A stretch of DNA of 64,000 bases from Centroberyx gerrardi. Its lineage: Eukaryota; Chordata; Actinopteri; Beryciformes; Berycidae. How positions within the stretch are numbered: position 1 is the stretch's first letter; each line of letters opens with the position of its first letter. The stretch covers positions 5,871,179-5,935,178 of the forward strand of contig NC_136006.1 in NCBI RefSeq assembly GCF_048128805.1. The letters run 5' to 3'. The notes under the pieces were generated by a model, which was not told the origin of the DNA, did no database searches, and worked only from the letters and a program-made list of their open reading frames with translations. The translations under genes and the position numbers were made by a program. This document shows positions 16,902 through 55,553 of the stretch, piece by piece.

Positions 16902-19900
16902 CTGAGAGAAACGACACAAGGAGAGGAAAAACAAAAGTCAAGACACATGACAGTTGGATTAACTTTCATGGCCGGTTTGTTCTATTGAGAGTGTACAGTT
17001 TGGTAGGAGTAAGAAATTTATGCGTGGCCTTTTGGAGAAGGACATTCATGCAACTCTTTCACTTCACTTAAAATGTTTTTGCGTTACAGTCGAACCATAT
17101 AGGACCAGCGTGGATCTAATACTGATCCAGCAGAGTTTGGGCTTTGCAGGTGCTTACCAAGGCTAGCTGCCGTCCGATGTTTCCCATAGTTATCACACCC
17201 GCAAAGAAGATGCAAGGTAACCAGGAGCGAATGTAGAGGAAATCTGGAGAAGTATACCTGTGCAGAAAAGAAGCACAACATTACAGCAACTGTTTAGCGA
17301 TACGCTAAACGGAAGATTTAGCAATTAATTAAGTTTAACCTTTAGCTATTTAACAGAAGTGTTTGCAGGGTGTCTGCAAGTTTCAAGTTAAATTTAAGAC
17401 ATTTGAAGGCTTTTTAATGCCAGTTAGAATGAATACAAGACCAATTTTGCACATGACAAAAAGGGAAAAATATAACTATAGACATATCAGAATATAAGTC
17501 TACGTGAAACACACTGTATCAAGAAACTGCAGCATTTTTAAGACCTCTCAAACTGAATTTAAGGCTTTATTTAACTGCATTCAAACCCTTTTAAAGCCTT
17601 GAGTTTGGATGAAATAATTTATGGTATTTTAAGACATTTTCAGGGAAATGCAGTTTGATCCAGCAATCCTGACCAGAGTTGCCAAAGGGGTTTTACATGC
17701 CGATTGGGAATGCAGCTAAATGAACGTAAAGGAAAGAAAACATACTGCTGGAATTATTGGATACAAAAAAATGTTTCCATGTTCAGCTTTGCCTGCGCCT
17801 GTCATCTTGAATTTCATTTTTTTCCTCTTCTTTCGTGTATTTTTTCACGGTGTTTTTATCCGTTTGCATCACTGCACAAACAAACTACACTAAACTCTGT
17901 GTGTGTGTGTGTGTGTGTGAACTCACTGAAAGACTCCATTGTAGACCAGGAGCTGGGTTGCCAGCGTCGCCAGCAGAGCGATGCAGACTCCCAGGCCGAA
18001 GCCGCTGCGGGAGCGGTCGAACGTCCACCACAGGCCGATGGAGAGCGCCGCCAGCGTCAGAGACAGCTGGACGTTGTTGGCAAAGTCCACTTTCTGACAG
18101 CAGCAGGGTCAAGGGCCTGGCAGTCAGCGATACAGAGCTTTACAACTGGATCTACACAGAGGCCGTGTAGACGAGACAGAAACTGCAGCTATGTGGGACG
18201 TTCAGCTAGTTAGCCATCGTAGGGTTAATATGAGAGTGTACCAAGTGTTGAATCTTAATGCAGCTGATTTGAAACAACAAATTATGATTAAAAACTGATG
18301 TACTGAAGTGCATGCATAACGCGCTGTCAACATTCACAGTCTACATTATACATTATCAAACCGCTCGCTGCCAAATGAACAACTCAGGATAGACCACTGA
18401 CTAAAATATTGCCTGTGGCTTGGTGAAAACTTGCATCGCCAAATAGTCATTTTCTTAGAAATTTAGACAAACTGGTTGTTTTCCCACTGACATCCAAGTA
18501 TTTTAACCATTTACAATGTCTAACTAATGCCTCAGGCTCACAGAACAAGGGTTTCTATGTGTGCAATTCTAGTATAAAACACAAAAAACTGTAGATATAA
18601 GATTTTTGCAGTTCACCAACGACATAGCAATAAAACAACAATAAATCATTCTGCAATTTCTAACCCTTGAGCCCCATCATGTATTTTGGTGGTGTGATTG
18701 TCAGTGAACTGATCCAGTGGTAACAACAACAACAACAACGCCTTAAGGATACAGCGCTGGCATGGTTGATGCCCACGAACACGGCCACGCAGCGCATCAC
18801 ACTGGACCACTCCCGCTTGAACTTGTGCGGCTCGCCCAGCCGGCTGTCGATGCACGGGTACAACAGGCCGATCATGGCTGAGAAAGGGACAAAGGGAGAG
18901 ACAACACAACCGGCTTTTATTGCTGCAATAGCACAGTCCCAACATGCTTTGCACGGTATTGTTGTGAAGAGAAAAGGCCTTCGCGTGGCATCCATGCAAT
19001 TCTGATGACACACTCCCTAGGTCTGAAACTGTTTTTGAAAAAGCTTCCTTATGTGTCCAGTTAGCAGGGTCAGGAAATATAACCTGCCAAGCGCCAAATG
19101 CCGGTAAAATCTTTAGCTTTTTGAGACGATAACATTTAGTTACAGTTTTGGTCTTTGCCTATTCTCAAACTTTGTCCCCACTGGCCACCGTACCCTCCCT
19201 CTGACTGTGATCCAATCAAATCAAAGCAAAATAATGGTTCTGCATCAAACATGCTCCTGATTGGCTGCCTGTTACGCTGCTCTACACAAAGCGGAAGCAT
19301 CTAAACTTCCTGGATGGATTATTTGAATATTAAAGTAATTCTCATGTAGCGAGTTACTTCATGATGAATTACCAACTTGATCCACTGTGTGAGTGAGTGA
19401 GTTTTAAATTAAAACTCTAAATCTGCTCTTGTCTCTTTATTGAATATTTGACAGTACCTGATTCTATACATGAAAAAGCATGAAAACAGCTAGGGTGATA
19501 TTTCTATGAAAAAATACATTAATTATTTTGGCTGTTAAAGCTTGTTCCTGGCAGGTAAATTCATTTGTTAACTTCAGACACTGGCAGTTGGTATTTGACA
19601 AAATAACAATAAACTTCGCTGATTTGCATCGCAGCTCAAGCCCCGATCACCTTCGACTTAACTAATGTGCCGTCAAAACAAATTAATTTTGCACTGTCAA
19701 CAAAATGCGATAGCCCTCCCGCGGGGGATGAAAGCCTAGTGTGTGTTAGCAACAAGTGGAGATGACAGGCTCCTGCAGGAAGAGCGGCGGAGTCTCAGGA
19801 GGGAGAGAGCCTGGGGCTGCTGGGCTGCGAGCGGAGCCGCTCGGGACCAGCCAGCGCCGCGCCGCGCCGCACTCCCCCGCTTTACATCCGCCGCTCAGCA

Positions 19901-22728
19901 CCCAGGGGACGACATTTCAATAATGCCGGCTAGTCGAGCCCACTGGGCACTGTGTGCATTCAGATGGAGGGGGGTGTGTGTGGATGTGTGTGTGTGTGTT
20001 TATTCCCATGCAAATGTCCACATATGCTACTTCAAAATGCCAGGAGCTGTGGTTGCACAATCGTGTTTAATCTTATTTAACTGTATATGGCGATTTTAGT
20101 TTCTGCAATTAATATTTGTACGTCTCATTTCCCTTAGAACAGCTGAAAATAATCAAGGTGTTGCTATGAGAAAGAGAGAGTGTGATTAAAACAGCTTTGT
20201 TCCCCAAATCAATTAATAATCTAATAATTGTGATTAACGACTGTGGTTGCAATGTCTAGAAAAATAATCAAGATTCTAATTTTATCTATAACTGTGCGGC
20301 CTTATCATAAGCTGTGGTTACACTTGTTATTTGGAATAAGACTTTTGAGATCCAGTCATAAAAGACCAAATCTCTGAGTGTCCATACACACTAAACATCT
20401 GCCGAGTTTCGTCCCAAAATGAGAAAAAAAAAAGTGACACCTGCTCTTACAAAATTACAATAATGTCCATCTATTTACGTCACTCGTATGCAGATTGTGA
20501 CTGAATTGAATTGTTCAGGCTATATGGAATTCCAGTCCTAATGCCATGTGTGACTGGAGGCAAAAAAACAAAACTAAATAAAAATAACATTGAAACAACA
20601 AGTGCAACCAGAGCCACATGTAAAGCTGTCTAATCAGATCATTAAAGAGTGAATCAGCACTAAATCACATTTATGAGCTGTAAACATTATTGTATGGCTT
20701 CTACATAGTGACAGTGGCATTAATCCAGTACTTAATTTCAACATTTTTCAACTGAAGTCCTACATCCACTTCTAGGGGGCAGAAAATCATTGTTGCACTG
20801 CTCTCCAAGTGATGTGAAGACAGGTATTTCACCTTTGGCAGCATCAAATGCTTTGCCATCAGAAAATTGTTCCCACCCCCAAGAAGAGATGGGTGATCTG
20901 TTATGGACACACTCCCCTATTCACTCTCACCACACTTTTTCACATCTTTCAAAATTAGTGTACCAGGCAGAGACTGGCTGGAAAGTTTGTTTACACACTC
21001 TTTAAAGATCATTTGGCTTTCAATTCTGCCATTAGGGCCATTCAAATCAAGCTGTAATAAAGCAATTTGATTTGATTGTGTATTACTGCTGTGTGTGTCT
21101 ACAGCAGTGGTTCTAAACCCTCAGGACCCAGAACCCTGCTGGTTTTCATTCTAGCCATCTAATCAGAGACTGATTTACACCTAGTGATGCAGAGTGACTT
21201 TAACTGCCTGGTAGGATAGAAAACTAGCAGCACTGTGTGTCCCGAGGATCAGGATTGAGAAAGACTGGCCTACATGGACTTAGTATTTTGAAATGAGACA
21301 ATACGTTTTTTCAAACAGCCTGCAAACAGCCTTCATCAATCAATGTATCAAAACCCAAAATGGGGGTTGTTTCTGGTGAGACACAACATGGTGAATACAA
21401 ATCTGTATTTATACTAGAGCTTATAGCTCTACGAATCCTTGTCCTGTACAAATCAAACAGCCCCAATAAAATGGGAAGAAGATGGCACTCAATCCATGAA
21501 GAGAGACACTTCAAGAGACGTGTTTCAGTAATTAACAGAGCATTCATCAGAGCAATCCTTGTCCTGTAATCAGAGATGTCAAATGGTTACGCTGTATGAA
21601 AAACTTCTTGCCAGAAGTCGACACAGACTCTGGAGCTTCCTGGCCGAGGATCAAATGCCACCAGGACCTTCTCTCCTGCGTCTCCTCCACTCTGCGTCCC
21701 TCTCAGCTTCCTACTGTCTCGATGAAAAGACAAAAATAAACCTGACGGGACCGCGGACTGCTAGCTATCTTTAGGGTGTGTCCATCTTACCTGAGGCCGT
21801 GCCGCAGCAGGGCGGCACCCACCAGGCTGAGGAGAAGATACTGCTGATGACATCAGGAGGGAAGAGGGTGACGTTTCTCTGCACCTGAAGCAGGTTCAGC
21901 ACCAAGGCCAGGAACACACCCACTGAGAACAGCATGGCCCCACGGATCACCAGGTTGGTGGTCCTGTAATACAGAACACCAAGAAGTCATCAGAATCAAA
22001 ATCACCTTTAACACATACTGAGAAGTTGCAGTTTCTTGGTAAAATACTGACACAACATGTTACAAGGACAACAAGACCTCACATACAGTACAACATGACA
22101 GTGTAAGACACCATATATCCTCCTATATACTTGTTCTACATAAAAAATAGGCACATCCCTGCCTTTGGTAATGAAGAACAACAAAGGGCTCGTTATCCAG
22201 CCTGGCTATGAGCACCATGTGAATACAAAATTAACAGAGACAACCACCCTTAAACACTTTAAAAAAAAAAAACAGCTCATGCCCATGTACCTTACATTTC
22301 TACCATACATTGTTGTTTGGAGGTGTATCTTTCTTATTCCTGTGGGTAACTGGCCAAACAAGACACCAATTTCTCCACCGACAGTAGCCTCAATAGACCC
22401 GAATGCAAAGCAGCCACAAAATAGCCGATGTTGTGTTGTGAGTAAGGGGTGCGACTCTCACTTTTTCTTGACCTGAAAAACTCATTCCATTATCGCTATT
22501 GTTCTGTCTACCAAGACATAAAAACCACAGCTGAATGCAAAAAGCCTACCTACAAGTCGTGAGTTGACCACCCATGGTCCACTTCTATCTATAATTTGGG
22601 CCAAAGTTTAACAGCCTCAGAACTGACCTGTTGGTGATGACCGAGATGTAGGGCCCCTGGGGGGGCCGAGGCTTCTGGCCGGATCCCAACCGCTGCTGCT
22701 GGCCGCTGGTCACTGTGCTGTCGGTCAT
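16860..22728 (-). CDS. insig2: Insulin-induced gene 2 protein (Insig-2), 6 coding exons
   Basis: ER membrane protein that binds oxysterols, retains SCAP-SREBP in the ER and promotes sterol-dependent HMG-CoA reductase degradation. Coding exons (minus): 22728-22628, 21963-21791, 18877-18753, 18093-17927, 17257-17158, 16901-16860, with intact reading phases, giving 235 residues against 225 in human INSIG2. Six hydrophobic segments fit the family. Diagnostic motifs are [45 protein letters not shown] (Lys110 and Lys112) and [10 protein letters not shown], with Asp159 equivalent to the SCAP-binding Asp of human Insig-2 and Ser161 to its phosphorylated Ser151. The tail ends KTHQE like INSIG2, not INSIG1. 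The start is the first ATG after a good 3' splice site. Odd: the tail reads YEYK where human has YECK, and the third coding exon uses a weak donor (GTATCC). Divergent neighbour of ccdc93. Confidence 0.96.
17899..17919 (-). repeat. (CA)n tract just after an insig2 splice donor
   Basis: About 20 bp of GT on plus, so CA in the insig2 transcript. It begins about 7 nt after the GTGAGT donor of the exon ending at 17927. CA repeats near donors are known hnRNP L binding elements; a role here is inferred. Confidence 0.8.
21434..21568 (-). mobile_element. Short hammerhead-like retroelement with 15-bp target duplication
   Basis: AATCCTTGTCCTGTA occurs at 21434-21448 and again at 21554-21568, a perfect 15-bp target duplication around a 105-bp insert in an insig2 intron. 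Read on minus, the insert starts near GCTCTGATGAATGC and then carries GAAACACGTC, the CUGAUGA and GAAAC core words of hammerhead ribozymes, followed by TTGAGTGCCATC and a TTTTATTGGGG tail. Stem II pairs poorly, so the ribozyme is probably decayed. The hammerhead, the long target duplication and the small size suggest a non-autonomous Penelope-like element. Confidence 0.6.
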
Positions 22729-29780: not shown

Positions 29781-30039
29781 CCGCATAGCCTTACAAATGT
29801 ATTGAAAATCAACACTCGCTCGAGAGAAAGAGAGGGGAAGGAATTCAAGCACAAACTTCTGAAATGGTGCTGTTAGATACTGTATGACTCACCGCTGTGA
29901 CCCTCTCTTCCTCGGGCGGTGTAGTAGAAACGCACGCGCTCAGTGGCGCTGAATGAGGTGTGACCTGCAGCTTGTCTGGGCGCTGTAGTACCTGCGGATC
30001 AGTCGGCCGTTTCGGCATACATCATCTAAAACCGTTTAG

Positions 30040-31209
30040 TAGGCAGATTTTTCTCCAGCGTACTGTAAGCACGCCAAAAAACACCAGGATGTTACACTGA
30101 ATTTCTGGTTTTGATTGAGCAGACACCAGAGAAATATGAACCATAAAGTGACAGGCTGAAAAAATACCCACAATGCAGTGTGACTAGACTGATGGTAAAA
30201 TAAAACAATCACTGAAAACAACTTGATACCATAACGATTGGGCCTCAATATGGTCTGAAGGGAGTTTGTTGAAATTATGTAATGTTTTTCCAAACACAGT
30301 ATACAATATAGTTAATGGGGATTCTAATGTTTCTTCTTAAATTTGATGCAATTTTTGTTTCAGTTCCATATCTCTTGTGATCTAATTTATGATTCTAGTG
30401 AAGATTGCAGTGCTCAAAACATTTTTTTCTTTCTAAAATTATAAACATTACGACTTCACGTCTGTGTTTTAGAGGTAATTTTGGCAAAATGACACTTTAA
30501 CATTGCATTTTCTCCAACAATGGTGGCAATTTCCTTGCTGTGGAGGTGCATGTGTGCTGAATAAACACACTGGGGAATAGTAGTTGCTGTTCAGATTGTG
30601 AACATCCCAAAACATTTTTAGACAACACACTGAGTTCTGTCAGATTAGATCTTAAAGAAAGACAGGATAGAGCAAATGAAAGTGGTATAAATGTGTTCAT
30701 GCTACCATATAGATGTCTAAAACTATACATTAAACTAGAAAACTACTACAAAACTGCATAACCCACATGAAGAAGTAGTAGTGTACACCTCCTAAAAAGC
30801 GAAAAACCACATAATAAAACTGACAAAGTACAATACACACACTGGCAACCGTAATATCTTTAACTCCAATGGTGGAATTTATTTCAACTATTGTTAACTG
30901 TTATACATTTCAATATCAAATATAATACAATATGAAAAGCTCTGGAAAAACAGAAAAAGTGAGCGTTTCAGTAAACACAGATCATTGGAAAACTCTGATA
31001 GCTGAAATATTCTTACAACAGACAGATGGATTCAAGTGAATTGATCAGAATAAAACAACATGATCCCACAGACCCACACAGAAATCAATAGCTACAAAGT
31101 TATTGATTGGACTTAGAGGTGGAGAAACACTGACATCCAGTGAAACATGTTGCAACACTTTTCTTTTCCATTCACTTTTTATCTGCAAGCATTTCAGAAA
31201 TATCTGTTT
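30040..31209. other. AT-rich region downstream of utp14; likely 3' UTR at right
   Basis: AT-rich, no exon seen. On minus, a consensus AATAAA (TTTATT on plus, 30878-30883) lies about 330 nt after the utp14 stop codon and is a reasonable polyadenylation signal, so about 30860-31209 is probably utp14 3' UTR. Confidence 0.5.
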
Positions 31210-33555
31210 CTAGCGTTTTGTTTTTTTCCTTGAGTCCACCCTGTTTTTATGAATTGTTTTCACAGCAAACGGCTGCTTCTTGTCCTTCATCAGCTTCTCC
31301 CGTGCGATTGGCTCAATGATGGCGCCCAGCTGGGTGACGACCTTCGGCTTGGTGATCTTCCTCACCGTCCGCTCCGTGTTCCAGGTCCGGCCCAGAGGAG
31401 AGCGGATGGTGCTCTCAAACTGCAAGGGGTTCTCGAAGGGGAAGGGCAGCGAGGTCACCTGGTGAGCGCCGACGCAGCCGCCTTTCGCCTCGGAGATGAT
31501 GACGCTGGGGAGGCCGCTGTCTTTCCTCGGAGGCGGCGCCACAGCTTTCATCCTGAACCTCTTGCGCTTGCCGCGGGACGGTTTGAGGCCCGTGCCGCCC
31601 CACTCGCCCCAGCCGGGCAGCGTCAGGTCCACGACCCGAGGCTTCCCCGCGTCCTCCTGCTTCCTCTTGTCCTTGAGGAAGTCGGAGATGACGTCGTCCC
31701 CGGCGAACGCCTCTTTGATGAGGCCCCTCTGCTCCTCCTTCTCCTCAAAGTCCTCGCCGTCCTCCACAGTCTGAGCCAAGGGGACCTGGATGACTTTGGC
31801 CTCCTTGGTGAGAACTTCTTTCAGATCGATCCCCCTCTTCCTTTTCCTGTTTGCCTTCTGAGGACCGGGCGGCGGGTTCTCTGCAGCTGGAGGATTCTGG
31901 GTCTGAACCGGCGCTGCCTCGGCGGGCGGCTCCTCCGGACCGAGCAGCTCCACGTCCTCCAGCGTCCGGATCCTCACAAGCCCCTCCTCCAGCGGAGCCG
32001 AAGCATCCATCTGTACGGCGTCCGCAGCCGCCTCGGTCTCTATCCCTCTGTAAAGGCTCGTGAATTGTGAAAGCTCCTCTTCCTCTTTGTCCGGATCCTC
32101 GGCTTCGGCGTTCTTCTCCTCCTCCTCCTCCTCCTCCTCCTCGTCATCGTCGTCACTCACACATATGACCAGTTCTTTGTCGGACTCTTGAGCCTGACGC
32201 AACTTCCGCTTGGCGTCGAACTCTCTGAGAAGCGCGTCCTCCTCGGTTTCCTCCACTTCCTGCTCATCCTCCTCTTCTTCTTCTGCTGTATTTCCCGCCG
32301 CCGCAGCAGCCGGCTCTGTGCAGTCCTTTGTCTCGTTCTCTGCGGGTTCTGCGGACAGTTTGCCTCTCATCCACGGGTTCGTCGGATCCGGCCCCATCTC
32401 AGCGTCGTTCACGAAATCAGGCAGCACCTCCGCATCTTCTTCTTCTTCCTCCTCCTCCTCCTCCTCCTCATTAAGCGAGGTGACGATCTTCTGCGTCAGC
32501 TCCTTGTTCACCTCCAGCTGCTGCTGCATGGCTTTCCGAGCCTCCTCGTCGTACTTCGCCATGATCGCCTTCGACTTGGCCCACTTGCCACTGTTCTGGT
32601 GTTTGAGCGACATCCTCTCCCGCATCCTCGTCAGCTCCATCTTGCTCAGCTCCTCCAAGGCGGCGGCCGGGTCCGTCTTCGCCATCTCGTCGAACTGCCG
32701 CAGGAACTCTTTGCGCTTGGCCTTGTTCTGCACCTTGTGGTACTTCTTGCTCTTGATCCTCCGCGCCCGTTTGGCTTTCGCCTCGTAGTACGACTGCAGG
32801 GCGCGGGCCTTCTGCAGCTCCGCGCGCCGGATCTTGGCCTCCTCCAGGCTCATCGCCCTCAGCGACGCCTCCTCCTTCGGGGTCAGGACGGGGTCGATGA
32901 TGGGCTGCTTGTTGACGGACAGCAGGCTGAAGATCTCCTGCTCCAGCGGGGTTCGCGCTTTCCACCCGCACACCACCTTCTCCAGGGGTTTGGGGCCCGA
33001 CGGCTCCCTGTTCAGGGGGAAAACCAGCTGCTCGGCCCTCTGGTTCTGCTTGATAATGCCCTTCCACTTTGAAACCTCTGCCGCCGTCTTCTGAAACGCC
33101 ACATCCCTCTGGATCCTCTGGGTCTCCTGCTTGCTCAGAGGACATTCAATGGTTTTCTGGCTCTGCTGCAGGTTCTTCAGCTGCTTCTTGGTCTTATTGG
33201 ACACCGCGGGGGTTTTGTCCATGGTGCCGATGAGGTCGGACAGGTCGATTTTGTCGCCCTCGCCCTCCGCATTGACCGTGAATTCAGACATTTGCACGGC
33301 CGCCTCGGATCTTTCACCCAGCTTCTTCTTCTTCTTACCTCCGAGGGAGCTGATGGCCTCCAGCAGCTTTTGGTGTTTTCTCTCATCTTCACCGCTCTCT
33401 TCTTCTCCTTCGTCGCTAGTGATGTTTTCATTAATCTTCTCTTCTTCGTCGTCATCGTCGTAGTCCACATCCGGCTTCACCGTTGTCATTTCATTTGCCG
33501 CATCTGCGGGTTTTCGACTCTTTTTGCCGACTTTCTTTTTGGAAGTCTTTGCCAT
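31210..33555 (-). CDS. utp14a: U3 snoRNA-associated protein 14 (UTP14), intronless
   Basis: Nucleolar component of the SSU processome needed for 18S rRNA maturation; in yeast Utp14 activates the helicase Dhr1 (DHX37 in animals), which displaces U3 snoRNA. The gene is one uninterrupted frame of 781 residues, close to human UTP14A in length. The start ATG at 33555 has a strong context (A at -3, G at +4); an upstream in-frame ATG would add 20 residues with no family likeness. Conserved blocks: DERKHQKLLEAISSL near the N terminus, WKARTPLEQEIF (about 208), MSLKHQNSGKWAKSKAIM (about 312-329), EAFAGDDVI..FLK (about 618) and DLTLPGWGEWGG (about 642). Two poly-Glu tracts at about 362-380 and 470-484 are encoded by GAG repeats. 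Human UTP14A has many introns, so this looks like a functional retrogene. It is head-to-head with ccdc93. Confidence 0.95.
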   Translation of the reverse strand: MAKTSKKKVGKKSRKPADAANEMTTVKPDVDYDDDDEEEKINENITSDEGEEESGEDERKHQKLLEAISSLGGKKKKKLGERSEAAVQMSEFTVNAEGEGDKIDLSDLIGTMDKTPAVSNKTKKQLKNLQQSQKTIECPLSKQETQRIQRDVAFQKTAAEVSKWKGIIKQNQRAEQLVFPLNREPSGPKPLEKVVCGWKARTPLEQEIFSLLSVNKQPIIDPVLTPKEEASLRAMSLEEAKIRRAELQKARALQSYYEAKAKRARRIKSKKYHKVQNKAKRKEFLRQFDEMAKTDPAAALEELSKMELTRMRERMSLKHQNSGKWAKSKAIMAKYDEEARKAMQQQLEVNKELTQKIVTSLNEEEEEEEEEEEDAEVLPDFVNDAEMGPDPTNPWMRGKLSAEPAENETKDCTEPAAAAAGNTAEEEEEDEQEVEETEEDALLREFDAKRKLRQAQESDKELVICVSDDDDEEEEEEEEEKNAEAEDPDKEEEELSQFTSLYRGIETEAAADAVQMDASAPLEEGLVRIRTLEDVELLGPEEPPAEAAPVQTQNPPAAENPPPGPQKANRKRKRGIDLKEVLTKEAKVIQVPLAQTVEDGEDFEEKEEQRGLIKEAFAGDDVISDFLKDKRKQEDAGKPRVVDLTLPGWGEWGGTGLKPSRGKRKRFRMKAVAPPPRKDSGLPSVIISEAKGGCVGAHQVTSLPFPFENPLQFESTIRSPLGRTWNTERTVRKITKPKVVTQLGAIIEPIAREKLMKDKKQPFAVKTIHKNRVDSRKKTKR

Positions 33556-33927
33556 GTTTGATTCAGCAGCAGCGGACTGTACACACGTGTGACGTGTTCC
33601 GATCCGTTGTCGCAAAGTAGTTGCCGCAGTGTGAGCTGCACTGTCGCAAACTGTCTTCTTCTTCTGTTGGTGGTTTGTGGCTGATTTTCAGTGGTGTTAT
33701 AGCTCTCTCTACTGGACAAAAGCGTAACTGTATGTTTTCTTTTTTTGTATTTTGCCGCTCTTGATGACATTTTCGTATGTTTAATGTGAAAATGAGAAGA
33801 TATGTCTTTGTGTGATGCGTTTGGGCTTCATATAAATGCAGTTTAAGCATAATTAATGAGTGTCATATGCCGGGATGCTGCCTGTCATATGCTTTGGTCA
33901 TGTGACTCACCTCCACATCAGTCCAAC
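33556..33927. promoter_or_regulatory. Bidirectional utp14-ccdc93 promoter
   Basis: Only 372 bp separate the two divergent start codons. The interval is TATA-less and holds a CACGTG E-box at 33584-33589, TGACGTG next to it, and a TCATGTGA M-box/CLEAR-like site at 33898-33905. A YY1-type word CAACATGGCGGC overlaps the ccdc93 start codon at 33925-33936. This layout fits a housekeeping bidirectional promoter; transcription starts are not known. Confidence 0.65.
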
Positions 33928-36900
33928 ATGGCGGCTACGTCTGTTTTCCAGAGGGTGAGAACAGGCTCCAAAATAGGCGCTCAGTATGACCAAGAAGGCA
34001 ACCTCATTCAGGTAAAGAGCTTTTGATTTGTTTTTTAACCTTGTGGCAAGGCAGTCGCTATAAAATGGCGCAGAAATATGTGCAAATAACACGTAACGTC
34101 GGTATGTAAACACTGCCGGGAGCTGGGTTAGCTCGAGCTCGAGACTGACAAACAAGCTAACGGTTCAGTGAGAGTTAACTGACATTTCAAACGTAAAACA
34201 TCTCAATATTAAGCTGAAGAGCATTTATTTGGGAAAAGATATGCGCTGACGAAGGTCTGATAGCAGGCTGGAATGTCTCCACTGCACCTTTTTGCACTTT
34301 AACGTTACTACATAATAAACATCAAACTAAGGATCATAATCTTGTGAAAACTTAGATTTTTCATCTCCCATTACATACTATAATCATAAAACACACAACA
34401 TGTCCATGGTTTCTTTTCTGTTCCTGTTTGCAAAATGTCAGCTTGACAAGTTGTTTGTTTCTTGTTGATTTATAGCTACTTTTTATTGTGATACTTTGTT
34501 GATCCCCCTTAGATAGATTCATATATCGGTTCGCTAATATACTAGGCCGATATTGGGCTTTTATTCAGTGTAGGATATCAGCCAGTCAATGTCATCCACT
34601 ATCATGATGGAGGTTCCTCCCTGACCACAGCTACAGACATGACATTTTATTTTCTTTGCATGATTTATGTATTCCTAATTGTTCAATGATGATCTTTCTT
34701 AATTCGTTTTTTATTTAAAGGTCTAACGTATCGCAGAGTTAGTTTCCTCTACTATTGAATAGGTGTGGTGTGTCTCCCTGCCTTAATAAGCTGCTAACCC
34801 TAACAAATGTCATTAGTTTTAGTGTCCCATGATGGTCTAAATGCTGTTTCAGAGGCTTTTCCACCCTGACGAGAATAAAATCTGGGTGATTTACAATTAC
34901 TTGGAATTTTTTTGTGCTGAAAATGGAAAAAATAATAAATATATTGAATATTGGCATAAAATATCAGCTATCGGCAGCTGCAGGATCGGTATCGGCGTTC
35001 AAAAACCCATATCAGTTGAACCCTGCTTGCCTCCCTCCTGAGAGGTCAGAGGTCAGCTACAGAGCAGCACCTCTGCAGCTGGTAGGGATTCAGTGTCTGG
35101 CTCAAGGACACTTCAGCAGGGCGGATGGGGATGGCAGCTGACGAGGCTTGAATTGAAGTTGTCTGGTAGAAGTACGATCCCTTCAACAACTTAGAGCGTG
35201 TTGGTTTCCTGAAGAGCTGCAGATTAAAGTGTGTGTGTTTTGTCTTGCAGGTGGAAACACGAGAAGATGAAGAGCAGAGCGTCAAGCTGGCCGAAATCTT
35301 GGAGCTTCTGCTGGCGGCCGGATACTTCAGAGCCAGAATCAAAGGGCTGTCTCCTTTTGACAAGGTACACACAGGCTTGGAAAAAAGGAAGGACGAAAAT
35401 ACTTAAAAAGCCTTTATTGTAGTTGCTAAATCATTAAAAAAGCCGACATGTTTCGACCACTGTAAGAAGACCTACAGTGGTCGAAACATGTTGGCTTTTT
35501 TAATGATTTAGCCACTACAATAAAGGCTTTTTAAGTATTTTCTTCCTTGTGGTTATATTTTTATATTTGGAGTGCCTGGACTGTCCTTTTGTTTGTACAC
35601 ACAGGCTTGTCTGCAAGGCTGGAAGAAACTAATTACATTCACTCACGTTACTGTAATTGAGTAGCTCTTTTGTGTACTTGTAGGCTACTTGTGTGAGTAT
35701 TTTAAAATCAGTAAGTGTGTTTAAGTGTGTTTTTACTGAGGCATTGCACTAAGCTACATTTTAAATCACATCCATTATAAAGTACAGTTTTTCTGGCTCT
35801 CCAGCTGCAACAGAAACTGGATAATCGTAAATTCAGTTGTGGAGCAATTCACAGTGAGAAAAGGAATCTGGCTTTACTTTGTTTGTGCACTTTATTTTTT
35901 TGGAATTTCCAAATTTTCCAGTTAAAAGAATCTAGTTTGACCTCTGTCCTCTCGTCCTTTTAGAATCACATGGCAAAGATCACAGCTAACAATGTTCTCT
36001 TTTCTAAAAAGTAACAGTAACTTTTACTCTGAGGACATTTTAAATGAGACACTTTTTAGGTTTACTTAAGTAGATTTTTACACCACAACTTTTACTTCTA
36101 CTTAAGTGAAATATCAGCAGGAGTGTTAGTACTTCTACTAGAGTTGGACACTCTAGTCCTCTGGCGTCACTCAGCTCGCTCCCTCTGCCTCTCCTCCTCA
36201 GGTGGTTGGTGGGATGACCTGGTGCATCACAACGTGTAACTTTGACATCGACGTGGATCTTCTGTTCCAGGAAAACTCCACTATCGGCCAGAAAATGTAA
36301 GCGGCTGTCAAGCAGTGTGACGGAGCTTCAGTTAATCTAGAGCTCAGATCTGATGTACGGCAACAACTGGGTGTTTAGAAAGCTGATTTGGTCAGATTTA
36401 CCTTTCAGGAGATTAGTGAATTTTAGAGCAGTTTCAGGTTGTGCCAGGTAGATGAAAATGGCCTGGACCATGCCACATATTTATCAAGCTTCTTAAAGCA
36501 GTAGTACTTTTTCTTTTTTCTTTTGTGCATTTGTTGCCGGTATTTTACAGTAGAGAGAGACAGTAAAGATTGGAAGAGAGAAGAGGGATGACATGTAGCA
36601 AAGGTCCTAAGCTGAATTTGTCTGAGCCACCAGGAACCCCAACACTAGTAAAACTTGTTGCTTATTCAACTACTACAGAAATTACATTCTTGAAAAAGAG
36701 TGGGCAGTCCTCCCACCTTTTTGTTTTTTTTTATTCTTTATTTAGACAGTTGGAAAGCAGAGAGGGAAACAGAGAAAAGAAATCTGTGGCAGGAGTCAGT
36801 CCTGGGCCAGTGGGACACAAATCTTCATCAGAAACTTAAACACTTGACAGGGTTTTTGTAAACTTCAACTGGTTAAGAAATGCCTGACATCTTTTCATGA

Positions 36901-39279
36901 AACATCAATAGTAAAATTGACCTACTGATTCCCAAAATGTGACCAAACCACATGCATCAAGAACAAAATGGCTGAATAATAACGCTGAATTTGTTACCTC
37001 AGGTTTCATTGGTTTTAACTTTTGACCTCACCTTGTACATACAGGTTGGTCATGTGATAAACTGACCAGTTAACGATTCACAAGAACCACCTGAACGCAG
37101 CTTAAATCCCCTGACTGCCTGATTCATATGGACTTAAAAGGCCAAAGTGATGCTCCATCTTAACTTTGAAAGGCTTGATCCGCTCAGTGACGAATCCTTC
37201 ATGTCTTCCTGCAGAGCTCTCACAGAGAAAATAGTTTCTGTTCTGCCGAAGATGAAGTGTCCTCATCGCCTGGAGCCCCATCAGATCCAAGGGCTGGACT
37301 TCATCCACATCTTTCCAGTCATACAGGTGACAATTTGTCAAAAACCAGCCAGCTAGTTTTTCACCACTTTATTTTTTCTTGTTTATGGGTGGTTGAGTCT
37401 TTAATCTTCTGCATTGTGTGGCCTTTTATGAATGTTTACTGCTATAAAAAAAAACACTTGCACATTTCATATACTTGGTGAATAAAAGTAATTAATCATA
37501 TGCATTCTGCTTCTGATTTATCTGTCACGTAATTTGTTACCTCTGCTAATGAAATTAGAGGGAGGGATTTTGTTTTCATCCCTGCTTTTATCTCAGAAAG
37601 TAACCAGAACAAGAACAGATTTGGGTGAAATCTGTTGGGCAGATTGTCTTTGGCCCAAGGATCAGCCGATTAGATTTTGGTTGTGATCCGGATCTGGGAT
37701 TTCCGCTATTAGACAATTTTCAATTTTAGCCGTAACTATTGCGCTTTGTTCATGTGCTGCTGGGAAAGTCTTACATCTAAGACTTCTTAAACTAAACTTC
37801 ACATGCTATTTTGTTGGGAAATCAAACCTGGAAGACAAACGATAAACAAATAATAAACAGACTGCAAGAATTGTTCAGCGTTGGCAGAGGTTTACGCTCC
37901 ACCGAGTAACTTCTAGTTTGTTCTTGTGTTTGATCCGTTGTGTGTTGTGTTTCCTGCCAGTGGCTGGTGAAGCGAGCCATAGAGACCAGAGAGGAGATGG
38001 GCGACTATGTGAGAGCCTACTCCGTATCTCAGTTCCAGAAGACACACAGCTTCCCAGAGGTAACATTCAGGCTCAACTTAGCTGTCATTTACAATTTAAA
38101 AAAAAAAAAAAAAAAGAAAATCAACACCAGGTTCCCTCAACCGGCTGGATCTTTGCCACAGGGCCTCCTTGGTATACTGTGATGATGCTGCCACCTAGAG
38201 GCATTTGCAGGAGATTTTCATAGCTCAATTTTGTAACCCAGAAAAATTTGAATTTGTCACTTGTGAAAGCACATTGAGAGCAGAGCAAGAAACATCACCT
38301 TTTCATCGACTGGCCACAGTAGGATTCCAGTGCACAAGCCACTTTCACTGTTCTTCCAGACAAATGTGATTTTCAGAAGGGAGAACAACGTCCAGATCAT
38401 GGACTTATAGAGAACTCACTTTGTTTTTCACTTCTTTGAGACTTCTATTTTTCTCAGATCATGTTCACACCAAGCATGTTCAGAGCGGTTTATTCAAACT
38501 CTGGAGTGTTTACTTTTTTAGCTTGGTTCATTTGGCAGGGGGGAACAATGACATTTGCAGTTATTTGCACCAAATAACGGCACAGTGATGCTCATATTCA
38601 TCTGTTTCTTCATGTGTTCTGAACTAGTTCAAGTTCATCATGCTTAACTAAAGTTACAGAGACTGGAATCAGATATGTAGAAATATCTCAATCCTTACAG
38701 TAATATACCAGTATTTGGGTAATGGCTGGTAGTAATGTGGCACCTTGGTTGTTTAACATATAAGACAAAGAGTTATTAGGCGTGTTCAGTCTTACTGTAA
38801 ACTGTCAAACTATATTTCAAATCAGAACTAGTCTTTACATCTGTTGTGAAACCCTCCGGTCTAGGATGAAGAGTTTCTCCAGAGGAAGGACAAGGCGGTC
38901 GGAGCGGTTCTGGATTTGTCGGTGAGTTGAAAAATCATCACAGGATCACACAAATTAAATGAATTACATCACCACTTAATTGGCAAAGCAAAATCTCAAT
39001 ATCAAATACTACTAATTAGAATACTTATGGAAATGTCTGCCTACTCACCAACAATAAGAACAAACAAAGTGTTTTCCCACTCTTTCGTGTTCCTGGTGTT
39101 TCAGACTGATCAGTCACTATAAATCCCACAGCCTGAGTAACTGCTTGACTGTGCATGTTAACAGGAAGTGTACAAACCCCAGAGGAAGTACAGGAGGCAG
39201 ACGGAGGCAGGAGAGCTGCTGGACGAGGAGTCCAGGGTTCACTCTACACTGCTGGAGTACGGCAGGTGAGATCTCACAT

Positions 39280-39376
<97 letters not shown>

Positions 39377-39548
39377 CAAAAGTCAGTCTCTCCCTCTCTC
39401 TACCTCTCTTTCCCTTTCTCTCTCTGTATATCTCTCTCTCTTTCACTATTGCTTTAGTTGTAGCTCTCTCTAGCTTCCACTCTCATGTTGTCTCACTCTT
39501 TTACTTGTACTCTTTCTTTACCTCTGCCTCACTCTCATGCTTTCCCCT

Positions 39549-39581
<33 letters not shown>

Positions 39582-42500
39582 TTCTCTCTCTACCTCTCTT
39601 TCCCCCTCTATTGCTCTCCTCTTCTCTCTTTCTCTCTCTCTACCAAAAGTCAGTCTCTCTCTCTCTCTACCTCTCTTTCCCTTTCTCTCTCTGTATATCT
39701 CTCTCTAGCTCTCTCTCTCTCTACCTCTCTTTCCCTCTCCCTAAGGCTGTCCCCTTCTCTCTCTCTCTCTCTCTCTACCTCTCTTTCCCTTTCTCTCTCT
39801 GTATATCTCTCTCTAGCTCTCTCTCTTATTTCTTGTCTCATTTCTTAATTTTCCCTCCATCTCATCTCTCTCTCTCCTGCCACCCAAAACCATTTTCCTT
39901 TTGTCTCTCACACAGAAATAACACAATTTAAAGGAAGGGTTGTTTTCCTTTCTTTTCGCTTTTCTTTTGGAAAGCTACACTTGTGAATCCTCACTTTCCC
40001 TACCTTCACCTGTAGTTTGTAGTTGTGTGATCTGATCCATGGAGTCGATCCATCTCACGTTCAGTTTCCCGTCTCTTTCTCGTCATTCTCTCATCCTCAT
40101 CATCCTTCTCCATCTGTGTAATAGAATGTCAGATTACCTCCTGTAAGTATCAACGTGTGAAGTGTTTTTCTCTGTAAGCGCTGCTGCTCACACCGGTGTG
40201 TTTTGTGGTTGAACATGCAGGGTGGAGAATGCAAACCGCTCACATGCTGTGTGCATGACAGCTGTAAACTACGGGGCTGCTTTGATTTCGCTTTTATTGT
40301 TTTTATTTTGGATGGAATTCCTCAGAACAGACTGCTGTGAAATCGTAGTCGGACAGTGAGATGATGATTTAAAAACTGTTTATCTTCATTTTGGGTTATT
40401 ATTTTATGTGCTGATATTCTCATGTGGCATGGTATAATTGAAATGTTTTTGTTATTTTTGGTGAAAGTTGATGCCGAGTTAGTTTCCACTGCCTTCGTTC
40501 TGTTTCAGGTGCTCATGAATGTTTTTTTCTTCTCATTTCTGTTCCCTCCAGGCGATATGGATTCAGCAAGCAGTCTAAACAAGACAAAGTAGGTGTTGCT
40601 GAAAGGTTGTTTTGCACTTTTCAGCTGTCAGAATTTACAGGGAATGATCTGGTTTCCTTGGATGAAAGAGTTTTCTATTACAATTAAGTAATTTGATGCT
40701 GCTATGTATCATTAAGAAAAGGATTGTCTGCATTATTAATGCCAGAAAATGCAGGATAAATGCCTGAAAGGAGACTTCCTCAAAGACTACCATACAGACA
40801 ACTAAATATTCTCCATGACAAATATTCTGTTTAATGGCATCGTAAAGTAATTAATAAATATATGGTATGGTAAGTTACAGGCTAATGATTTGATGTTTAT
40901 ATAGTAACAAACATCTTGTAAATTCGGCCTTAAATACAGAGAGTGGGTTAACAGAGAGCATTTGATTCTCTTTTATCAATTATTAGGCCTATAAGATGCT
41001 GTATGTTCATCTCAGTTTTATTCAAAGCTTTTGCGAGAATATAAAATTCATGATGAAAGGAACTTTTTCTGCTTTTGCCTTTGCTTCTTACTTAGTGTGT
41101 TTTAAAGGGAAAATGCACTCGAATTCAGGATGCAAGTGTGATTCTAATCATCTGCTTTATGTTTTCAGTTTAATATCCGAGTAGACTAAGAAGTCCAGAT
41201 TAATAGTTTGATTTGACCTTTTCTTTGTATCTGTTCTAGTATTTTCTGCTCCTCAAACTTCCTGCGTTCTCTTCCTCAGGCGGACGAGCGGAAAGCCTCA
41301 TTGGCTGGCGGCTCTCAGGCCACGCCCACCGGGATGACGGAGGTGTCGGAGGAAGAAGACCTGCAGGCAGCGGAGGAGGTGAGCGCTTTACTGAACCAAT
41401 ATGCCAAGTACCTTACACATGACAGAAGAAGAAAGAAATACAATAAAAATGTAGCCTAGCAGATATGAGAGCAGGAGAAGAGAGAAGAAAGAATATTAAA
41501 GGTAGATTTTTTTTTTTTTTAATATAAACAGCACCAACCAGACAGAACCAATACCTTTATTGTTGTTGCTGTTGTAAGAAAAATGTAAAAAAAGATAACA
41601 GTAATAACTTATCATGTAATGATGTACTAGCAATAGTACTTTACTTATGAATCAGATATAAAGTTTGAACGAATGTCATTGTTAATCATGTACTACTCAG
41701 TTACAACTATTTAAAGTATGACAAGTACCTCATTGTTATTTAATTAATCATTAACTCATATTTAGGTGGAGTAATCCATAAAAACTTCTTAGACTTTAAA
41801 TACTGTTATTATTTGATTTTTATCAAGCAAGTAGCAGTTTGTAGTTGAGTTTTAGTTGAAATAATGTTAATTAACGGTTGTTGTTTTTTCCCCTCAGATG
41901 CGCATTAAAACCCTGATGACCAACATGGCCGCCATGGCAACTGAGGAGGTAGAGAAGTCTCTCAGCTTTAGACTGTTTAGTACTGAATCGCCACATTACG
42001 CCCTGCTGGTCTGTCTGTCCGTCCTCTTTCTCTCACCTAAATTGCTGCACTAAAATGCTTTTGCCTCAAAGTTTGATGAGTTATTTTATTCACAGGGAGG
42101 TTTAATAATTGATTAAGGTGGACTGTTAGTTGTGTTTTGTTGAAAACGTCCCGGTTGTGACTGATTTGTCTTCCTGCAGGGGAAGCTGACAGCGAGTGCG
42201 GTGGGCCAGATAGTGGGTCTGCAGTCTGAGGAGATCAAGCAGATCGCCTCAGAGTACGCTGAGAAGGTGAGCAACATTAAGACATCAAGAAACATCAAGA
42301 AATTGTGATGTTATTGTGGAGGATGTGGGTAAAATACAGCCTATACATCTTGAGTCAAAAATAGTACTTATGAGAGATGCTCTTGTCATCCTTTATTTTT
42401 TAAAGGGTCACTGAATTATCTAATGAGTGTTTTTCAAATTATTTTTGCCATCCAATCAGACTGAATTTTGTCTTTAAGTTCTAATTAATTGTATACTTGT

Positions 42501-45500
42501 GCAGTATAAATAAATAAAAGTAACATTGTAATGCCTCCCATGTGTCTCCACAGCAGTCTGAGCTGTCAGCAGAGGACCGTCCGGAGCGCTACGGCCCGCT
42601 GCAGCAGCACCGCAGGACCGTCGCCTCGCTCAACAAACAGATCCAGCAGAAGACCAAACAGCTGGAGGAGGTCGGCACTGCAGTGAACTTCACTATAAAA
42701 CACTTTCACACGTGTCATTTTGTGTCCTCCACTGTATTAAACCCTTAATTAGAGTCAGAGTCACTTTGATCGCCAAGCACAATAAATTTACAGGAGTCTT
42801 TGTGTCATTGGTGCAGAGACCAATAGACAACTTGCAGAATAACACATACATACTGGCACACAGTATAGGGAGCACAGGACCTCACATACAGTACAAAACA
42901 TACAATAGACAGTACACAATACATACTACTCTACATATACAGTCAGCATTCAATAGCTTACTACATAGGACACAAAATGGCCCTCATAAAATGACTGCCA
43001 TGACGTCATGTGGAGGCCAGATCTCCAGTATACTGTAATATTAGAAATGGCATGTTACAACTGAGTTGCGTGAAATGGTGTAAAGTAGATGTTGCCACTA
43101 TAGAAATCCATCTTTGTACATGTACATCACTTTTGAATATGTTACAGTATAAGGCAAAAATATCAACCATGCTTCAAGTGACATCAGATATTGGAAACCA
43201 TTTAGAAATAAGTTTTAACCAGGTTTTGTACTCTGTATTATTCTTTCTTATAGCTAATGGAGTTGAAAAATTAATCAGAGGAAGCATATTCTGTAGAGGG
43301 AAAGGTTTTTTTTATTTAACCACCATAAAACTATGATTAAATGAGCTATTGTAGCTGGTAGGGATGCAGTGTTTTGCTCATGGACACTTCAGCAGGGCAG
43401 ATGCGGAGTTGCAGACATGGGGGGCTTGAACCTGGGTCTTCAGGTTGAAGGACAGTCTCCTAACTCACTCACTGGCTGTTATGAATCACAGAGGAAAAGT
43501 TGTCATACCAAAATGTCAGAAACAGTACACACAAGCACAAGAAACGACAGCAGCAGCGGTCATAGATGCGATTAACCGTCATTAAAGAACTGTGTTTCCC
43601 TCTGGGTTTACAGCTTCAAGCCAAACATACGGAGGTGAAGACGGGATGTGAGGAGGCCAAGAGGAAACTGACGGAGGTAAAACACTGCAGCACCTGGATC
43701 CAGCTGAGAGGCATTTTTACATTGCCAGACACTTTCAAAAGTAAACAACTTCATATGAAAGACTGGCATTGGGAGTTTATGTGAGCAGTTGAGAATTCAG
43801 GTGCCAGGACGGCTGTAGATGTGTTTGAGGCAATAAAATTAATTGAATCGTACATAGTTACATCATTTGTCATTTTGCTAGCTGATATTTGCCATGGATT
43901 TTGAGATTTCATACTTTTCTGTTAGATTTACTGTCAGGCTCCAAAATTAGGTATCACTATTTGAAAAAAACACAGTGAACATCAAGAAACATTTATTTTC
44001 GAAGATTGATATATAGCTTTTTGGAATAAATCCCTTTTATATATTGTTTCTTGAGGGACAATGGCAAAGTTTGTTTTCCTTCACCATGACTTTGAACATT
44101 TTGATTTGCGTAAGTTCTCTAACCAGAAGAATCTGGAGTGAGATCTTCACATGTGTTTATGCTTCCAGGCCACAGAGCGCTCAGAGAAAGTGGAGAAAGA
44201 GCTGCGGTCTCTGGAGGAAGTGGAGTCTCAAACTGACAGCAGGTGAATCCACTTTGACTTCTTCAAGTCCTTTAACAGAGTCTTTGTGGTAGCTGGTAGC
44301 TTTTGGTAATAACTGCCTAGTAACCAATTCTGCCGGAAGTTATGACCAACCTTATTCTTCTCATTTATTCCTTATATCCCACTAAATCTCCAGTGCAATG
44401 ATTTCAACCCAGAGAAAGTTTGATGTTGATTTCTAACACAATGAGCATCATTTTGTTCAGTTTTGGATGGTTAGATGGTACAAAGCCTGTAGGACTGAGA
44501 GAGCCGAACAGACAATATTTCTATTTTTGGGAACAAATATCCAGAGTTGGAACTTAGCTAGTTTGACAAGAAGCCGGCTGGGTATTGTCAGCCGATTAAC
44601 TATGCATACTGTCGACCAATCGGAGCATTCATTAAAACCTGGGTGTACCTGACATCATTTACACCAGGAAGTATAAATCTGTTTGATTCTGTCGACAACC
44701 AGAGGGAGCGTTTTTCAAATTTCCACAATGCTGACCGTGAGAAATGCAATTCTCATTGCACTGGACCTTTTTAAAGTTGGTTGGGAGTGTCTAGAGGAGT
44801 TTTTGTTCCAAAACAGAGTATGGGCTGTAAAGTGAGTTTTCACATGTCACATTCAGTCACTGGTATTGATCAAAAACCCTATCAAATCAGATGCAGGCAG
44901 ATGTATCATGGCCATTTTGTAGTAAAAAAACAGTAAAACCCTTACTTATTGCCCCTTTAGTTGTTTTAAAGGAATTTTAGAACACAGAATGGCCATTTTA
45001 CACACAGTGCAATTACAAATTTTACTTCAATATAACCTGAGACACATACAGTACATGTACACATTTCACCAGAGGGGTCAAAGTGCAGGGTCTTCTGCCC
45101 TTGGAGCATTTAGGAGTTCAGTGTCTTGCTCATGGACACTTCAGCAGGGGTTGGCTGTTGATAAAGGTGGACCTTTCAGTGATGGGACGGTCTCTCTAAC
45201 CGGTCTCTCTAATGTTTCTGTGTGTTGTTTGACAGCTTATTGGAGAAGCTGAGGGCGCTGGTAGGGATGAACGAGAACCTGAAGCACCAAGAGCAGGAGT
45301 TCCGTACACACTGTAGAGTGAGTAGATCTACCCACATGGTTTTATTTCACACCCTGTTTACTGAGTGTTTCCTTTATCGCAGTGTCTCTCAATCTATGGG
45401 TCGGGACCCAAAATGGGTGGTGGGCCTTCTGGTTGGTCCCTGTATGACAAGTGAACTAGTATGTTTCAGTGAGCCTGCATCCAAGAGTGAGGCTTAGTTT

Positions 45501-48500
45501 ACTCCAATTTGGGTCCCTAGTCTGAAAATGTATAAGGCTGCGATCACACCTACAGTTTGTTTTCTCTGGTCCGGACCAGAGTGGAAAAGTTTCGTTTGTT
45601 GCATTTTTGTATTTGTTTTTTTTTAGTTTCACACTGTCCAATTACAAGTGAACCAGGGCTTGTAAACAAAAGTCACATGACTTACAAGTAGCTTGTTTAT
45701 TGGACAAAGTTTTGGGACCTGTCCTCCTGCCAGGTTAGAGATTTTGGCAGTGGGAGGAATCAAAACAAATCAGATTCCAGTTCCTGTAACTTCAGCTAAC
45801 ATGATGGACTTGTCTGTCTCTTCTTCTCTGGTGTTCAAACCAGTTAAGAACACATGAAGAAATAGCTGAACGAGAGCATCAGTCCAGACTTCATTTTGAA
45901 TTGTCATTGTCAATCATTTTTGAAATGTGTTGCAACACTGGTCGCTGGTAGCACCGTCCTCCTTTGTCCAGCAGTTAAAAATGTGAGCAAGGCTCCACAG
46001 GCCAGAAAATTAGTTTTAAAGGCAGAAATCTCAGGACCTGGTGAAGAGATTGTTGTGCCATTAATATTGATCAACAGCTGTATCAACTCCAGCAGTTATA
46101 TTATGGTCATTTTGTGCTATGGGGCAGAAAAACCTTACTTATTGCCCCTTTAATGTGTGGTTGATGTGTGTAGGAGGAGATGGCCCGTCTGCAGCAGAAC
46201 ATTGAGGATTTGAAGATGGCATCAGGAGACAATACAGAGGAGGAGAAGGTACAAGTCCAGTTATAACTATATCCACTTATAACATCCTATATATATATAT
46301 ATATATGTAACCACTTGTCTAATCAAGACTTTAGTTTGATTTTATCTTTTAACATCAAGCCTCATGTCCTTAAAAATACAGTTAGCTTTTTTAATGGCAG
46401 CGTTGAGTTTTTTGTAAAGAAAAACTAAATTAAAGAAAAAAGAAATGCATGAAACTCAACTATACCTTCCTTGATCAAGTAGCATTTGTACATAATTCTT
46501 TTAGCTTGTTTTCCCTTGCTTGACATACAGGATGGGTGGGGTTTCACAAGTAGGAAAATTCAGTGAGTGCCAGAAGGTTAAACAATCACAGAAAAGTCTT
46601 TGAAAGTCAAATTAGTATAATTTTCTGTGATTGACAACCTAACTGACACTGTGTGAATTATCAGATATGTTAACCCCATCCTTCTGGTACTTGAAGGAGA
46701 CGAAAACAAATGCTCAGATTTATTTTTGAATGCTACTCCACCAAAGTCAGATCTGTTTGTACTCTTTCTATTCCTAATTTCTACCTCTGTTTGTTTTTTC
46801 TCAGGAGAGGAACCAGCTGATAGATAAACAGTACAACACAGACAGAGAGAAACTGCAGAAGATCCGTCTGCTCATGGTAATAATGACTTAACACAACAGT
46901 TAGATTAGATGAGATGAAACTCCAGTGATCTCTGTGGGGAAATGAGGTCGTCCCAGCAGCGGAAAATAGGCTGTAGATAAGAATGAGACAAATAGAGAGT
47001 ACTGAAAATAATACAACAAATCAGCAAGAAACCGCTTCTTCACTGACAGATTTACAGGCTAGCTAATCATATTATCAGGTTCGACCGATGGGGACAATAG
47101 TTTGTGCAGATATTCAATAATTTTGTAGATTTTACCATTTTCATACTAAACAATATTCAGTGTTTTCTTCTTGTCAGGGTGGAAAAGCCTCTGAAACAGC
47201 ATTTAGACCATCATGGGACACTAAAACTCTCCACTGAAACCCAGACTAATGAAATGTTGTTAGGTGGGTTAGCAGCTCTTTAAGTGGAAGGGAAACTCTG
47301 GGATACATTAGGCCTTCAATGAAGAAAAAACGAAAAAAACGAAACAGAATTGAACAGTTAAATTAATAAATAGAATGTGCAAAGAAGATCAAATTTCATT
47401 GCAGGTTTGACTGGATGATATTCGATATCAGTGTAACGCTAGTGCAGATGGACGAATATATATACAGAAATGTGTCCAGATGTATTGATCCAGATATGCA
47501 TTGTAAACTAGTGACATGATAAGATTTACAAATATATCTAAAACATGCAGATTTGCATTGTAAGCTAGCTATCATCTTGTAAAATGTATAGATCTAGGTA
47601 ACATATATACAGAAGTGAGTCTGGATGTGCATTGTTACATACAGAGATGTGTGCAGAAATATGTCCCAGCTCATATACATTCACCATCTGGTTGGCGCTT
47701 TATTAAAAGAGCCTTACAGTTCCATGACTGTAATACATTCTTAGTTTGAATGGTCCCAGTGGGAAACGAACCCCTAACCCTGCATTAATAGCAGCTTGTT
47801 TTACCCACTCAGCTACAGGATTTAGTCATGAAGCTGTACATTTACACTGAAAGCTCTAGACCAGTGTTTAGATACAGAGTAAAGGGGAATACCATTTAAT
47901 TGCAGCATTTACATTAGCTTATTATGTGATAATGTGTTCAGTATCTTGCGTTAAATTGCAGTGCTATTGTTATGAATGCAGCTTCAATCTAATAGTGACC
48001 GTATGCATTTGGGCAATGTGGACAGTGTAAATTTCTACCTGTGAACAACAGAGTGCTGCTGCTGACTTGACACTGTTTAACTATTTTGTCAAGGGCCGCA
48101 TTAGAAAACCTCATGTCTCCAATTTTGGTGATTTTCGTGTTTTAATTTCATTTGAAGGATTACATTGCCTTTTATGGGTGGAGACAATTCTACAACCTTT
48201 GGGCTTTTAAAACCCTTTTAAACCCCACTGGATTAACTCAAAAATCATGTTTCTGTTCATTCCTGAAAAGTTTTAGAGATGGAGATTTTTACCTGAAAGT
48301 GACAATATGTCATTTGATGGACATTTTTATCCAAAGCGCCTTACAGTATCATGGGTGTATACAATTTTAGCATTAGTTGCCCCAGGTGGGAAACAAACCC
48401 CTAACCCTGGCAGTGTGAGCGCCTTGTTCTACCAGCTGAGCTGCACAGGACTGTTTTGAGTTACACCAGATGTTCCTTGGTTTTCTCCCAGGCTCGGAGG

Positions 48501-54205: not shown

Positions 54206-54259
54206 ATGACCGGTTGTAGGTGCCGGTGGTTTGGTTTCAGGCGGGTTTCAGGCGTCTGA
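54206..54259 (+). CDS. Upstream ORF of fgf (17 codons)
   Basis: ATG at 54206 opens 17 codons and stops with TGA at 54257-54259, 13 nt before the fgf ATG at 54273. A second, overlapping upstream frame starts at ATG 54052 and ends at 54219. If transcription starts upstream they would limit fgf translation, a usual feature of growth-factor mRNAs. Confidence 0.35.
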   Translation: MTGCRCRWFGFRRVSGV

Positions 54260-54272
54260 TTTTGTTTCCTCG

Positions 54273-55494: not shown

Positions 55495-55553
<59 letters not shown>

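Follow-up and report, generated by a model that had tools for sequence, protein, structure and literature searches.

An intronless utp14 between insig2 and ccdc93 in Centroberyx gerrardi, a probable retrogene that replaced its multi-exon parent

The only utp14 gene that we found in the genome of the fish Centroberyx gerrardi is an intact, intronless member of the Utp14 family located between insig2 and ccdc93. It is very probably a retrogene that was inserted at this site and replaced a multi-exon parent that has since been lost, a reading that follows from its new place, the lack of any intron and the absence of a second copy from our searches. The window, that is, the whole stretch of 64,000 nucleotides analysed here, corresponds to C10:5871179-5935178 of an assembly of 778.9 Mb in 278 contigs, and the features on which the argument draws are collected in Table 1.

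Table 1. Features in the window and on contig C16 (positions without a contig name are those of the window)
Feature	Position	Strand	Details
utp14 CDS	31210..33555	-	single exon, 781 codons + stop; ATG at 33555, TAG at 31210-31212
AATAAA polyadenylation signal	30878..30883	-	~330 nt 3' of utp14 stop
insig2 coding exons	17143..21965	-	multi-exon; human query + Pfam INSIG match
ccdc93 first coding exon	33928..34011	+	inferred from ATG 33928, donor after 34011, phase 0
ccdc93 downstream coding exons	35248..51033	+	multi-exon; human query + Pfam CCDC93_N match
Divergent spacer, candidate shared promoter region	33556..33927		372 bp; start codon to start codon
CACGTG E-box	33584..33589		29 bp 5' of utp14 ATG; motif match only
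YY1-like motif AACATGGCGGC	33925..33935	+	overlaps ccdc93 ATG; motif match only
Donor-like site AG/GTGAGT	33905..33910	-	355 bp 5' of utp14 ATG, beside ccdc93 start
PUFD (bcor/bcorl1-type) gene	C16:18657934-18659337		PUFD family match
zdhhc9	C16:18710869-18729013		human ZDHHC9 query, 6 matches
SLY/SPIDER-domain (sash3-like) gene	C16:18738142-18739586		domain match

The identity and integrity of the gene are clear. Its protein matches the Utp14 profile PF04615 at positions 1-730 of 731 (E 4.2e-150, 502 bits), and residues 29-741 of human UTP14A (7mq8_SS) align with residues 47-759 of the fish protein, 713 residues on either side (653 bits), with identity at 362 of the 695 aligned residues (52%). 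These equal lengths leave no space for unspliced introns in the fish gene. The frame is free of stops across 31210..33615 on the minus strand, an upstream TTG included, whereas the longest stop-free stretch in 200 shuffles of the coding sequence reached 394 codons, and the longest stretch per shuffle averaged 200. The single intronless frame of 781 codons proposed in an earlier note on this DNA is therefore real. The span of 31210..33927 given there does hold the gene, but the coding sequence stops at 33555 and the remainder is intergenic. Mammalian UTP14A generally has 15 exons according to the available part of PMC5750009, in agreement with the many introns that the note mentions, so that one frame in the fish stands against a many-exon gene in mammals. 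GC content or codon bias of the gene was rejected as a retrogene signature, as its GC3 (0.78) is not distinctive when compared to that of 11 exon pieces of ccdc93 (0.72) and four of insig2 (0.79). As expected, no relatives were found in IMG/VR or in prokaryote genomes.

The frame also appears to be under constraint, with zero stops in 781 codons and the fish residue kept at 132 of the 173 columns in which human and yeast agree (changed at 41). Where human and yeast differ, the fish protein shares the human residue at 151 of 275 columns. Lineage-specific changes number 38 in the fish vs. 24 in human with yeast as the outgroup (chi-square 3.16) and 28 vs. 16 with Chaetomium (chi-square 3.27), neither of which is significant at 5%, and slightly faster evolution of fish Utp14 than of human UTP14A after retroposition may thus be seen as a trend only. 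Among the changed parts is the block RKDSGLPSVIISEAKG (residues 677-692; 31477-31527 for residues 677-693), in which the fish protein reads SGLPSVIISEA vs. KNL-NVIINEK common to human and yeast; this, too, would be a trend and is no proof of an altered function. Utp14 is described in the available part of PMC11994318 as activating the helicase Dhr1/DHX37 by way of a region at yeast residues ~710-779, beyond which lies a G-patch-like tract. EAFAGDDV and LPGWGEW are retained by the fish protein in these Dhr1-activating and G-patch-like parts, and its role in the SSU processome and in Dhx37 activation is a predicted one. If the only utp14 found is also the sole copy of this essential gene, it must act in all tissues; it would accordingly be expressed in all of them, and a testis-only role is unlikely. 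The male-germline roles of Utp14b and UTP14C that the note mentions are thus not indicated for the fish gene.

On either side of utp14 lie insig2 (minus strand) and ccdc93 (plus strand), which is the position that the note had assigned to it, and the 372 bp that it gave for the divergent interval to the ccdc93 start are likewise found between the two ATGs, that of ccdc93 being a predicted one. The exons of both neighbours were located with human query proteins, and the Pfam search adds one match each to INSIG and to CCDC93_N. Human INSIG2 and CCDC93 presumably have no UTP14 between them. Beyond ccdc93, an FGF-family exon (PF00167, E 1.5e-7) is found in 56043-56369 on the plus strand and marks an fgf gene as the next one along; a signal peptide may be encoded by an exon near 54270 (region 54210-56369). 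A long TC-rich microsatellite lies between ccdc93 exons at 39282-39826 (a 2-base unit repeated ~270 times, with 66% matches).

The spacer between utp14 and ccdc93 has features that would suit a promoter region shared by the two genes. Its CpG observed/expected ratio (33556-33926) is 0.77, compared to 0.51 for the window. The spacer contains a CACGTG E-box, a motif linked to Myc-type regulation, and, at the ccdc93 start, AACATGGCGGC, which we take to be a YY1-like motif. At the level of such motifs, the short divergent spacing is compatible with capture of the ccdc93 promoter by utp14. A GTGAGT at 33905-33910 could mark the start of an intron in the utp14 5' UTR. The scan that gave this one donor-like site returned no acceptor-like site, eight upstream ATGs lie in the 380 bases preceding the utp14 start, and a 5' UTR intron was rejected as a candidate feature.

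Direct marks of retroposition were sought on both sides of the gene. No A/T run of eight or more is present in 29001-31300, and no common word of 10 or more bases is shared between 33556-33926 and 29001-31209, so that neither a poly(A) remnant nor a target-site duplication is found at utp14 and signs of a recent retroposition are absent. Such marks are typical of young copies and need not be present in old ones; they decay, and their absence is as expected for an old event, which leaves the mark of retroposition an indirect one. Reverse transcription of a spliced mRNA would yield just such a copy, displaced and free of introns. A copy-number table for human Xq26 in the available part of PMC4657880 names XPNPEP2, SASH3, ZDHHC9, UTP14A, BCORL1, ELF4, AIFM1 (written AIPM1), and RAB33A. 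The list is presumably in map order. It gives these genes in the order known for Xq26.

Several of these neighbours are still together in the fish. Contig C16 carries zdhhc9, a bcorl1-type gene, and a sash3-like gene (Table 1), a linkage that must be older than the fish-tetrapod split, and the family-model search (E<=1, 53 of 266 first-look candidates scored) returned no utp14 match near them. The PUFD and SLY genes on C16 are named from linkage, not from trees, and other PUFD and SLY matches exist elsewhere in the genome. The PUFD places are C10 at 19.99 Mb (two pieces), C16 at 18.66 Mb (two pieces), and C21 at 1.04 Mb (one piece in an open frame of 489 codons). The relative orientation of the C16 PUFD gene is opposite to what we take to be that of human BCORL1. 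Directly upstream of zdhhc9, the 9.8 kb read of the ~51-kb C16 interval contain no utp14 remnant (best match E 3.7, chance level). A utp14 relic just 5' of zdhhc9 was rejected as a candidate, and a TRM5/TYW2-type gene occupies that stretch instead; exons of this methyltransferase are seen at L047:3525-4477 on the minus strand. The aifm1 gene is located on C11, where 200 kb around it gave matches to the AIFM1 query and none to RAB33A, SLC25A14, ELF4, ZDHHC9, or UTP14 (E<=0.1). This locus was therefore rejected as the former parental site, which makes C16 the better candidate. From the human arrangement, we infer that the parental utp14 of fishes once sat between zdhhc9 and bcorl1 on C16, a place unrelated to the present one between insig2 and ccdc93 on C10. 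Alternatively, with one fish genome examined, UTP14 could have moved to its place between ZDHHC9 and BCORL1 in the tetrapod line.

In one alternative reading, utp14 was already intronless and located between insig2 and ccdc93 in the ancestor of jawed vertebrates, or the retrocopy is a very old one, and the copy with introns seen in tetrapods is another one that they retained or acquired again. One genome cannot date the event, neither poly(A) nor target duplication is left at utp14, and the conserved neighbours on C16 do not prove that utp14 was once among them, all of which would fit this view. Yet a mammalian UTP14A of 15 exons (in the part of PMC5750009 at hand) is hard to derive from an intronless gene, and the linkage in the fish of the human UTP14A neighbours listed in the accessible part of PMC4657880 indicates a neighbourhood that predates the fish-tetrapod split. 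We consider an ancestral intronless gene improbable compared to replacement of the parent by a retrogene.

Replacement further implies that no multi-exon parent survives. The search of this genome for an intron-containing utp14a that the note had recommended was run and returned none by DNA, protein, or family model across the 778.9-Mb assembly, which is possibly incomplete, with 53 of 266 first-look candidates of the family search scored. Both the family-model search (PF04615) and the protein search with fish Utp14, each at E<=1 over the genome, led to a single locus, the utp14 of the window. The DNA search with the open reading frame returned the gene itself and 12 short matches of 33-72 bases, which correspond on the query side to 32074-32479, where the frame is rich in Glu codons and contains CTC repeats. 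Confined to this part, they seem to reflect shared coding sequence of a repeat-like kind. Split genes were recovered by the same kinds of searches, including CCDC93_CC in five exon pieces of 33-39 residues, PUFD at three places in pieces as short as 27-28 residues, AIF_C in three pieces, and zdhhc9 as six matches on C16 (human ZDHHC9 query). In addition, human UTP14A was divided into 14 pieces, each ~51 residues long, which were searched against the fish protein with the search space set to the size of this genome, as a model of a parent as diverged as human UTP14A; six pieces were recovered at E<=1.1e-7 and a seventh at ~0.001, and seven were missed. Going by the controls and the piecewise search, a parent with introns would probably have been detected if it were still present in the assembled part of the genome.

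These results bear on a second alternative, in which the gene is a young or lineage-specific retrocopy beside an intron-containing parent missed by the assembly or the searches, and is perhaps testis-biased like mouse Utp14b. Assemblies can miss genes, the family search scored 53 of its 266 candidates, and the mammalian UTP14 retrogenes do coexist with their X-linked parent, as stated in the available part of PMC5750009. In a trout array study, Utp14c is placed with rRNA-processing and meiosis genes in a cluster assigned to differentiated spermatogonia (accessible part of PMC2786911). This placement would suit ribosome production in general no less than a function in the germline, and the array gene is not tied to the locus studied here. 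Against a coexisting parent, no parental exon was found in 779 Mb with exon-level controls working, the DNA search gave no near-identical piece of more than 72 bases elsewhere, and fresh poly(A) or target-site duplications are absent, which together make this explanation quite unlikely. Loss of the introns in place by mRNA-mediated gene conversion, with a later move of the gene by segmental translocation, would yield the same intronless frame at a new place, but it requires two events and the loss of every intron, and UTP14A in human has neighbours other than insig2 and ccdc93; we give this explanation hardly any credence.

For the retrogene that replaced its parent, we propose the following course. 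In an ancestor of this fish, reverse transcription of a spliced utp14 mRNA would have given a retrocopy, inserted between the divergent insig2 and ccdc93 and close to where ccdc93 starts. There it may have come to be transcribed, the short divergent region adjoining ccdc93 being its most likely promoter, and may have taken over the housekeeping work of Utp14, which is to join the SSU processome and activate Dhx37/Dhr1 so that the U3 snoRNA is released. The multi-exon parent, located in human between ZDHHC9 and BCORL1, would then have been lost. The note had suggested a fish-lineage retrocopy with the ccdc93 promoter that had perhaps replaced its parent; replacement is the part of this suggestion favoured by the intact intronless copy, by searches of the assembly that returned no intron-containing utp14 and by C16 neighbours without utp14, and the promoter part remains a matter of motifs and spacing. 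Somewhat better than even are the chances that the replacement is ancient and common to a large share of ray-finned fishes, with the retrocopy serving as their sole utp14 via a bidirectional promoter with ccdc93.

Among the matches listed for the open-licence part of PMC, no paper describes a fish utp14 retrogene, and none in the same collection joins utp14 and ccdc93. The main text of PMC5750009 does not mention fish, zebrafish, chicken, or vertebrate, and utp14 is absent from the main text of two teleost retrogene surveys (PMC3136929, PMC8207432). The literature on zebrafish utp14a contains nothing on gene structure as far as titles and opening abstract lines tell, and the available part of a Xenopus study names utp14a only as lying close to an insertion on chromosome 8 and does not describe its structure (PMC3792888). 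For this genome, our results support the replacement of utp14 by a retrogene as a new case, in fish, of a known phenomenon. Zebrafish databases may already hold a single-exon gene named utp14c, and caution is advised with the names UTP14A and UTP14C in fish, to which the human A/C distinction does not necessarily extend.

UTP14 has been retroposed repeatedly in placental mammals, from a parent on the X chromosome with generally 15 exons, and retrocopies are absent from monotremes and marsupials (available part of PMC5750009). Such out-of-X copies are usually explained by X silencing in male meiosis (PMC8793726 and PMC3136929, both in part), and ovary expression has also been reported for a mammalian UTP14 retrogene (PMC2660244, in part). 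If the replacement in this fish is real, capture of UTP14 by a retrocopy is possible without the X-silencing pressure of male meiosis, and a housekeeping gene can serve after losing every intron and its old promoter. Should the event prove to be an ancient one in fishes, successful retroposition would be a recurrent event for UTP14, independent of X linkage and male meiosis. The same protein encoded by ~15 exons in one lineage and by one in another also offers a comparison of what introns contribute.

Like mouse Utp14b and primate UTP14C, the fish gene is an intronless copy of the same gene, and some of the mammalian copies likewise have intact frames (available part of PMC5750009). In mammals, however, the X-linked multi-exon parent persists and, according to the same source, its copies are limited to the testis, whereas no parent was found in the fish. 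In teleosts, the intron-containing parent of rhodopsin, exo-rhodopsin, also persists, whereas none was found for utp14 here. The intronless rhodopsin and other opsins of teleosts resemble utp14 as fish retrogenes with core functions (PMC6650399 and PMC10339062, as far as available). Replacement by a retrogene, or orphan retrogene, is a named phenomenon (available part of PMC5803294), and the fish gene would belong here, as no multi-exon parent was found within the limits of assembly completeness and of the 53 of 266 family candidates scored. As in amphioxus SYCP1, it is a single-exon copy at a new place whose parent would be lost, and SYCP1 has a bidirectional promoter region with its neighbour (same source, in part). 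The two cases differ in gene and lineage. Orphan retrogenes were reportedly treated by Ciomborowska in 2013, as cited in the amphioxus paper. Unlike SYCP1, fish utp14 encodes an essential ribosome-biogenesis factor, and the promoter that it would share with ccdc93 is a predicted one.
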